Below are positions 83 to 36,168 of a stretch of 36,244 nucleotides of DNA, piece by piece. How positions within the stretch are numbered: the stretch's first letter is position 1; each line of letters opens with the position of its first letter. Made by a program: the position numbers and the translations under genes. Origin of the DNA: Rhodospirillales bacterium (lineage in GTDB: Bacteria > Pseudomonadota > Alphaproteobacteria > Acetobacterales > Acetobacteraceae); assembly GCA_947447625.1 (NCBI GenBank), contig CANFKS010000040.1, positions 1 to 36,244 of the forward strand, in the 5' to 3' direction. The notes under the pieces were generated by a model. The model had not been told where the DNA came from, did not search any database, and saw only the letters and a list, made by a program, of their open reading frames with translations.

Positions 83-110
83 CGGGCGCGGTGGCTGGTG
101 ATGTGCCGGA

Positions 111-149
111 TGGGGGTGCCTTCGCCTATCAGAAGGCTTACTGCTCTAG
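111..149. repeat. degenerate copy of the AGAGC hairpin module
   Basis: The 21 bases at 117-137 are identical to the centre of the perfect hairpins at 22018-22059 and 36001-36046, including the 8-base loop GCCTATCA. The flank toward 149 matches the full copy at 8 of 11 bases and ends in GCTCTAG. The other arm is eroded. The element overlaps the stop codon of aapP, because the minus-strand TAGAGC end supplies its TAG. Confidence 0.8.
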
Positions 150-21874: not shown

Positions 21875-21926
21875 TTGCGCGATGCTTGACGGGGATCGGG
21901 CGGACATGCTCCGATCTTTGTCTGCG

Positions 21927-22003
21927 TGATGATTTCGCCAAAAATCATCAGGTTCTAGAGCGTGATCGCCAAAGGTGGAATCACACGGCGCGTGAATCAC
22001 GCG
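21927..22003. repeat. cluster of small hairpins of the AGAGC module family
   Basis: TGATGATTT (21927-21935) and AAATCATCA (21942-21950) form a perfect 9-bp hairpin. CTAGAGC follows at 21955-21961. GCGTGAT (21960-21966) can pair with ATCACGC (21996-22002), and CGCGTG AAT CACGCG (21989-22003) is another small hairpin. The words match those in the tandem units at 35893-35991 (GATGATTT, GGAATCAC, CCAAAAATC). Confidence 0.7.
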
Positions 22004-22017
22004 ACCAAACAAGGGCT

Positions 22018-22059
22018 TAGAGCGGGATGCCTTCGCCTATCAGAAGGCATCCCGCTCTA
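22018..22059. repeat. perfect 17-bp hairpin module (REP-like)
   Basis: TAGAGCGGGATGCCTTC (22018-22034) and its exact reverse complement (22043-22059) flank the loop GCCTATCA. The same hairpin occurs at 36001-36046, and a decayed form at 111-149. It lies 143 bases after ggt and 74 bases before the next gene. It may act as a terminator-like structure, although no T tract follows. Confidence 0.9.
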
Positions 22060-22133
22060 GGTGAAAGACCGGGGGTCGGCTTGATCATTTCCCGCCGTTT
22101 GAATGCCTGCATAGCGGTGAAGACCGGTCCGGC

Positions 22134-35880: not shown

Positions 35881-35892
35881 GCGGATCCCTGG

Positions 35893-35991
35893 AGCCTCAT
35901 AATTTTTGGCGGAATCACCAAAAACCTGAATCAGGCGCTCTAGAGCCTGATGATTTTTGGTGGAATCACCAAAAATCTGAATCAGGCGATC
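35893..35991. repeat. two tandem hairpin units, 51-nt period
   Basis: Units at 35893-35940 and 35944-35991 agree at 43 of 48 positions. The second folds as a long nested hairpin: GCCTGAT pairs with ATCAGGC outside, and ATTTTTGGTG pairs with CACCAAAAAT around a GAAT loop. The units meet at the palindrome GCTCTAGAGC (35937-35946). They begin 13 bases upstream of the zinc-ribbon start and lie in the zinc-ribbon/ftsE divergent region. Confidence 0.85.
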
Positions 35992-36000
35992 AACCACAGA

Positions 36001-36046
36001 GTTAGAGCGGGATGCCTTCGCCTATCAGAAGGCATCCCGCTCTAAC
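36001..36046. repeat. perfect 19-bp hairpin module (REP-like)
   Basis: GTTAGAGCGGGATGCCTTC (36001-36019) pairs exactly with 36028-36046 around the loop GCCTATCA. It is the same module as at 22018-22059, identical over the shared 17-bp arms and loop. It lies 9 bases after the tandem hairpin units and about 120 bases before ftsE. Confidence 0.9.
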
Positions 36047-36168
36047 GGTTGGGCGCGATCCTGCCCGGCACTGCAAGCCAGCGCAACGGGGATCATGAAA
36101 GTGCAGTACCTTCCTTCGCGCTCGGCTATCATGGCACAAAGCGAACAGGAAAAGGACCGAGTCGCGGG

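Follow-up and report, generated by a model that had tools for sequence, protein, structure and literature searches.

The analysed stretch of DNA, hereafter the window, is 36,244 nt long and corresponds to contig C40 of the 4.28-Mb draft genome of a Rhodospirillales bacterium (197 contigs, 96% complete). It carries two copies of a composite repeat, each adjoined by a hairpin remnant, and one decayed hairpin (Table 1). The repeat unit is the composite, a 102-bp element made up of hairpin A (AGAGCGGGATGCCTTC-loop-GAAGGCATCCCGCTCT), a 16-nt linker and a second hairpin. A sequence-only reading of the window had noted hairpins with shared TAGAGC/GCTCTA ends at three places, and all three were recovered, two as exact A hairpins and one as a decayed A hairpin. 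Two hairpin types had also been seen side by side in the same order at two loci. The order was the same at both, but the types turned out to be modules of one composite, and the second hairpin is not equal between the loci (subtype C in copy 1, the common subtype B in copy 2).

Table 1. Positions of repeat-related features in the window
Feature	Position	Strand	Basis
Composite copy 1	21957-22058	minus	covariance-model match, 79.6 bits, E 3.1e-16; sequence; fold z -7.3
Copy 1, hairpin A (exact)	22019-22058		
Copy 1, linker	22003-22018		
Copy 1, C-type second hairpin	~21957-22002		
B-type hairpin remnant	21922-21956	plus	ungapped match in module map (cluster C40:21922); sequence
Composite copy 2 (hairpin A, linker, B-type second hairpin)	35942-36043	minus	covariance-model match, 118.4 bits, E 5.9e-25; sequence; fold z -10.2
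Copy 2, hairpin A (exact)	36004-36043		
Further second-hairpin remnant	35891-35941	minus	covariance-model match 35896-35940, E 0.00041, model positions 53-97; sequence
Decayed A hairpin	~108-148	.	sequence; covariance model E 2.8 only
GCTCTA end of decayed A hairpin	143-148		
ABC-transporter frame	146-2359	minus	PF00005 at residues 511-659
Stop codon of ABC-transporter frame	146-148	minus	

Copy 1 is flanked, in minus-strand reading, by CT|A...T|AG, and copy 2 lies in the gap between the start of a minus-strand zinc-ribbon frame and a plus-strand frame starting near 36168. The remnant beside copy 1 is inverted relative to it and that beside copy 2 stands head-to-tail with it; the junction is CTAG in both cases. 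Both composites fold as DNA far better than shuffled sequences, and three tested folds lay 7.3, 7.5 and 10.2 standard deviations below the shuffles. The GCTCTA end of the decayed A hairpin contains the stop codon of the ABC-transporter frame, and the stop-at-border test was positive for this right end (C40:108 R). The composite as the repeated unit, the occurrence of solo B hairpins and the supply of the ABC-transporter stop by the end of the decayed copy are points that the sequence-only reading did not contain. A search of the whole window against Rfam at gathering thresholds gave no match. Counts of intergenic positions are approximate, since the simple gene caller used here called a wrong frame near 180-932 of the window.

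For one protein encoded in the window, the closest named relatives come from uncultured Rhodospirillales (identities of 83 and 85%). A protein 65% identical to the query is encoded in a record titled Mycobacterium sp. KBS0706 (L036), and the Inquilinus limosus protein is 66% identical; the title may be wrong.

Copies, modules and distribution

We searched the whole assembly for the modules of the composite. Allowing up to 3 mismatches, we found 99 copies of hairpin A, divided 48 to 51 between the strands, and none with a reversed-pattern control; the B core gave 88 copies against 0, and TAGAGC-N28..58-GCTCTA occurred at 99 sites against 31. Further copies thus exist genome-wide, and they are not the product of one recent duplication. 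A module map of 244,783 bases around known copies contained 140 A, 148 B and 5 C hairpins, falling into 146 clusters: 86 single A-B units, 17 solo B, 16 solo A and 27 arrays or odd orders (A orientation in clusters was assigned by the loop, the A arms being palindromic). The gap from A to B was nearly constant (27 bases in 88 cases, 24 in 14 and 28 in 12). Where units abut without a gap, 18 joints were head-to-tail (16 B to A and 2 C to A) and 1 was inverted. Roughly 100 or more dispersed copies with a fixed module order, and the lack of a terminator call on the A hairpins, bear out the earlier proposal of a mosaic repeat family rather than independent terminators.

A length of 102 bp was found in 74 of 119 composites, and 22 of the 74 are identical to the consensus, which indicates that the family expanded recently. 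The outer hairpin arms constitute the terminal inverted repeats of the element, which are short and imperfect and read GAGCNKGATG in this genome.

Next to these elements lie at least two further palindromic repeats that lack TAGAGC ends, with the pairs CTGTGATCGCG...CGCGATCACAG and CATACCAAGG...CCTTGGTATG; they occur at L131 (contig C81) ~195-245 and in the right flank of L016, and at L005, L012 and L131 ~280-335. A stretch of ~600 bp beside one element on contig C5 (L231, 6131-6773) has ~71-85% matches at several places in the same genome among the matches listed.

Outside this genome, the A hairpin was found in one of 119 other genomes of a family sample, among the matches listed, and a search of the genus, with the same scope, returned related composites in genomes G121 (91%) and G120 (82%). 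The consensus also matched elements on Rhizobiaceae plasmids, in six records, at 75-80% over 66-73 nt. In the alignment the plasmid elements share both palindromes and the asymmetric TCA with the composite, and their linker is related. Employing a covariance model built from 11 copies of this genome and 5 rhizobial copies, we obtained full-length matches in 10 of 190 class-sampled genomes including this one, the nine others belonging to nine other families; the number is a lower bound, because only 19 candidates per genome were scored. The element of G263 had 825 matches in 114 plasmid records, 113 of them from Sinorhizobium or Ensifer; plasmid searches with the elements of G199, G148 and G171, and a search of viral contigs with the A arms, gave no match.

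Target site and stop codons at element borders

Based on the 55 composites with intact ends, the flanks follow the pattern YTA...TAR, i.e. Y-T|A-GAGC ... GCTC-T|A-R: T was present at -1 in 49, Y at -2 in 53, A at +1 in 53 and R at +2 in 53, with no consensus further out. In 13 single copies that equal the consensus, the outer bases vary and hence belong to the target, not to the element. At 23 of the loci with full-length matches to the covariance model, YT preceded the element in 20 and AR followed it in 20.

Filled and empty sites were compared in relatives. Sinorhizobium meliloti GR4 has the filled site AAAC-TA-[GAGC...GATC]-TA-GGCG; the same site is empty in 5 strains among the matches listed, 4 of which (2011, Rm41, LMB1 and RCAM1115) have a single CTAG. 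In Rhizobium brockwellii CC275e the filled site reads CC-C-TA-[GAGC...GTTC]-TA-C, and the matching R. leguminosarum site is a single CTAC, a sequence outside YTAR, in both strains read. Comparisons in S. fredii and R. tropici were compatible with TA duplication but not clean (non-homologous right flanks in the former, CA on the left in the latter). Insertion of the element in these Rhizobiaceae relatives is therefore accompanied by duplication of TA, both within S. meliloti and between two Rhizobium species. For the species of the window, its own flanks and the orthologous genes suggest the same duplication.

The empty site of the fifth S. meliloti strain, B399 (L339), has one extra base, possibly an excision footprint and possibly a simple mutation. 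A strict search for TAGAGC...GCTCTA palindromes at 80 named loci (L032-L111) found nothing. In L033 the site that follows the gamma-glutamyltranspeptidase gene is shorter by ~120 bases, with flanks too diverged for a base-level comparison.

Many element borders coincide with gene ends. An open gene-like frame has its TAG stop exactly at 64 of 186 intact ends in this genome, and the first base of the element completes the stop; these 64 ends fall into 62 of 130 clusters (the test required at least 250 bp of flank). Free non-coding YTAR sites under the same rule were stops in 5 of 39 cases (Fisher p 6.7e-5), and in 8 of 40 under another gene rule; because both controls leave out occupied sites, the enrichment is overstated. 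YTAR is rare outside stops and harmful insertions are lost, and both effects must account for part of the enrichment. On contig C5 the border of the element is a gene end at three sites (of what we take to be smpB-like, agmatinase-like and moaD-like genes), and same-genus relatives have a stop exactly at the border in 4 of 4, 1 of 4 and 4 of 4 cases, the stop lying within YTAG in 1, 1 and 2 of them. In the other families, gene stops were found at 13 of the 40 ends that could be tested, representing 12 of 23 loci. Here 6 of 46 ends had been set aside for want of a border TAG or of sufficient flank, L306 was left out, and L301 and L307, which have identical flanks, were both counted. The empty CTAG of S. 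meliloti RCAM1115 holds the stop of an annotated CDS (L343, 399-734 minus). Since G follows TA at both ends of the element, a hit on either TAG or TAA leaves TAG.

Dispersed near-identical copies, YTA...TAR flanks, TA duplication in the Rhizobiaceae relatives and borders at stops that orthologs also have are what we observe of this element. They fit best a MITE that inserts at YTAR with duplication of TA and is probably moved by an IS630-type DDE transposase, an interpretation that we consider likely and in which the enzyme stands as a candidate class. The non-autonomous body, GAGC...GCTC, would consist of two inverted hairpins and the linker. A DDE transposase of IS630 (Tc1/mariner-like) type would act on it in trans and cut at TA|GAGC, and insertion at a YTAR target would duplicate TA. 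A hit on a TAG or TAA stop would leave TAG and the protein unchanged, so that the insertion would be tolerated in a compact, GC-rich genome. Solo hairpins, and head-to-tail arrays whose units share one TA, would have arisen secondarily, by recombination or because a copy inserted next to an older one.

Hairpin structure and candidate transposases

The hairpins themselves could be the functional units, as immobile terminators, mRNA-stabilising structures or sites for CcrM, the GANTC methyltransferase. They are strong and often stand at gene 3' ends; of 73 pairs changed in the A stem, 12 have changed on both sides and stay complementary, and the consensus has two GANTC sites, one of them (GATTC at 77-81) at the loop of hairpin 2. 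The double changes may reflect either selection or copying from arm to arm. On the other side, the terminator scan called neither A hairpin of the window, and no T-run follows A. Of 33 diverged copies, 25 retain the loop GANTC, a count at the median for 5-mers, and 29 retain the bulge GANTC, which ranks sixth of 98. Consensus-identical copies and polymorphic insertions, moreover, point to mobility. We regard immobile hairpins as very improbable; a side function besides mobility is possible.

With the loop GANTC at the 5-mer median and no excess conservation, selection by CcrM on GANTC was rejected. The terminator scan does mark AT-rich stretches at the B-type remnant, 35924-35951. In several listed copies (e.g. 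C2:113282, C6:39129 and C37:24699) the A stem stays perfect through double changes.

Several families have a 3-nt bulge on the inner arm of each hairpin, which marks the composite as an inverted pair. This architecture resembles REPINs, which are doublets of REP sequences in which two inverted hairpins move as one unit, accompanied by solo hairpins and arrays, with a GTAG-type tag, and associated with RAYT transposases. Movement of the composite as single-stranded DNA by a RAYT (Y1 tyrosine transposase) would account for the inverted doublet with its inner-arm bulge, the solo hairpins and the tandem arrays, and Y1_Tnp (PF01797) was above the cut-off in 2 of the 10 genomes with composites, G243 and G268. 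It was below the cut-off in the 8 others, including the single-contig genome G148. The RAYT-type transposase whose search the sequence-only reading had recommended did not turn up in the draft genome of the window, an absence that is not final at 96% completeness. The TA duplication in relatives and the GAGC ends in place of a GTAG-type tag also set the composite apart from REPINs, and we consider a REPIN-like origin quite improbable.

The MITE interpretation calls for a transposase with matching ends. IS630-family elements with the ends TA|GAGC...GCTC|TA were found in four genomes, that of the window and G111, G148 and G171. Ends of the type YTA|GAG(C)...GCTC|TA(R) were read in 8 copies of G148 (in two groups), 2 compared copies of G171 and 1 of G111, with GAGT at the left end of one G171 copy and GCTT at the right end of one G148 copy. 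The comparison covered 2 of 6 copies of G171, the other 4 lacking a shared anchor, and excluded G121, G199, G255 and G268. In the genome of the window, IS630 right ends at three contig edges read GCTC|TA; the draft assembly contains no intact IS630 copy, and the fragments at contig edges suggest a multi-copy element lost in assembly. Agreement between the IS630 ends and the terminal repeat of the composite, GAGCNNGATG, is confined to GAGC. Neither TAGAGC nor GCTCTA occurs in 4 of the 7 DDE_3 loci of this genome, GCTCTA is missing near the end of a truncated IS630 copy in G120, and DDE_3 had no match in 4 of the 9 other genomes with composites (G200, G243, G263 and G304).

The breaks at the edges of three contigs (C81:1-195, C88:16870-16985 and C93:1-140; L131, L027 and L270) fall within near-identical C-terminal ends of an IS630-family gene.

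A MITE of the same kind could also be moved by an IS5-type (IS427-like) transposase, which likewise duplicates TA at YTAR. IS711 of Brucella is presumably an IS5-type element. Its TA duplication at YTAR is canonical, and it inserts into Bru-RS1, according to the available part of one report (PMC3163539). IS5-type elements in G148 and G304 are flanked by CTA...TAG, and PF13340 is present in 7 of the 10 genomes with composites, including that of the window. It is absent from G243, G255 and G263, and the ends of IS5-type elements, readable at 13 of 27 loci, all of them in other genomes than that of the window, begin with GG in every case and never with GAGC. We favour a candidate IS630-type enzyme, whose ends share GAGC with the composite, and consider an IS5-type mover unlikely.

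Relation to known repeats and implications

Chen and Shapiro reportedly described in 2003 the CIR, CcrM-associated intergenic repeats of Caulobacter and other Alphaproteobacteria. As excerpted in a 2007 review, CIR are ~100-110 bp long, with two arms and a linker, GANTC partly in the terminal loop and TA termini; repeats of this kind are abundant in Alphaproteobacteria, in many copies, and their duplication was listed as unknown and their mobility mechanism as open (PMC2229807). The composite is like CIR, by description, in length, in its two arms and linker, in the loop GANTC and in the TA termini. To these it adds the TA duplication (in relatives), the YTAR target and the stop-codon sites. 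The CIR are called strictly intergenic; in the present genome 62 of 130 clusters touch a gene stop, gene positions being approximate. Judged from their descriptions, the CIR appear to be the best-documented architectural match.

RIME (Rhizobium-specific intergenic mosaic elements) are ~108 bp long and have two large palindromes; they occur in rhizobia. The sequence-only reading had likened the ends of the hairpins to RIME and Bru-RS, and the comparison was well aimed, in that two-palindrome elements on Rhizobiaceae plasmids are detectably similar in sequence to the composite, also in the linker and in the asymmetric TCA. The plasmid records do not name RIME, and the similarity suggests that these elements are RIME; the name itself is used in the accessible part of another paper (PMC2573895). 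Unlike RIME, elements of the present kind are not restricted to rhizobia. Bru-RS1 and Bru-RS2 of Brucella, of 103 and 106 bp at one locus in the section available (PMC10800456), are alike by description alone, in size, palindromic structure and occurrence in Alphaproteobacteria, and Bru-RS has YTAR sites used by IS711 (PMC3163539, in part). RUP of pneumococcus resembles the composite in size (~107 bp), TA target and a proposed IS630-type mobiliser, IS630-Spn1 (PMC2229807, as excerpted), but RUP ends closely resemble those of its IS630, whereas the composite shares GAGC only. With related composites on Rhizobiaceae plasmids and in nine other families of the class, the repeat would belong with the CIR/RIME kind, and what is added is evidence on mechanism.

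In its available part, a 2024 review of MITEs names CIR as intergenic and mentions neither stop codons nor IS630. The open-licence literature, judged by its listings, contained no report of TA duplication or stop-codon landing for such repeats.

We tentatively propose, as a possibility short of an even chance, that CIR, RIME, probably Bru-RS and the present repeat form one ancient IS630-type MITE superfamily across Alphaproteobacteria. GAGC ends at YTAR would always rebuild TAG, on either strand and in either orientation, and the stop codon would be a safe landing site that aids persistence at high copy number. The empty sites of relatives provide the duplication (TA) and, for the most part, the target (YTAR), which bears on the question left open in the 2007 review as excerpted (PMC2229807). 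The shared IS630 ends name a testable class of enzyme. The coincidence of borders with stop codons provides a simple explanation of how insertions come to be tolerated, and predicts at which places they should be sought; for annotators, it means that the ends of such elements can supply the stop codons of genes.
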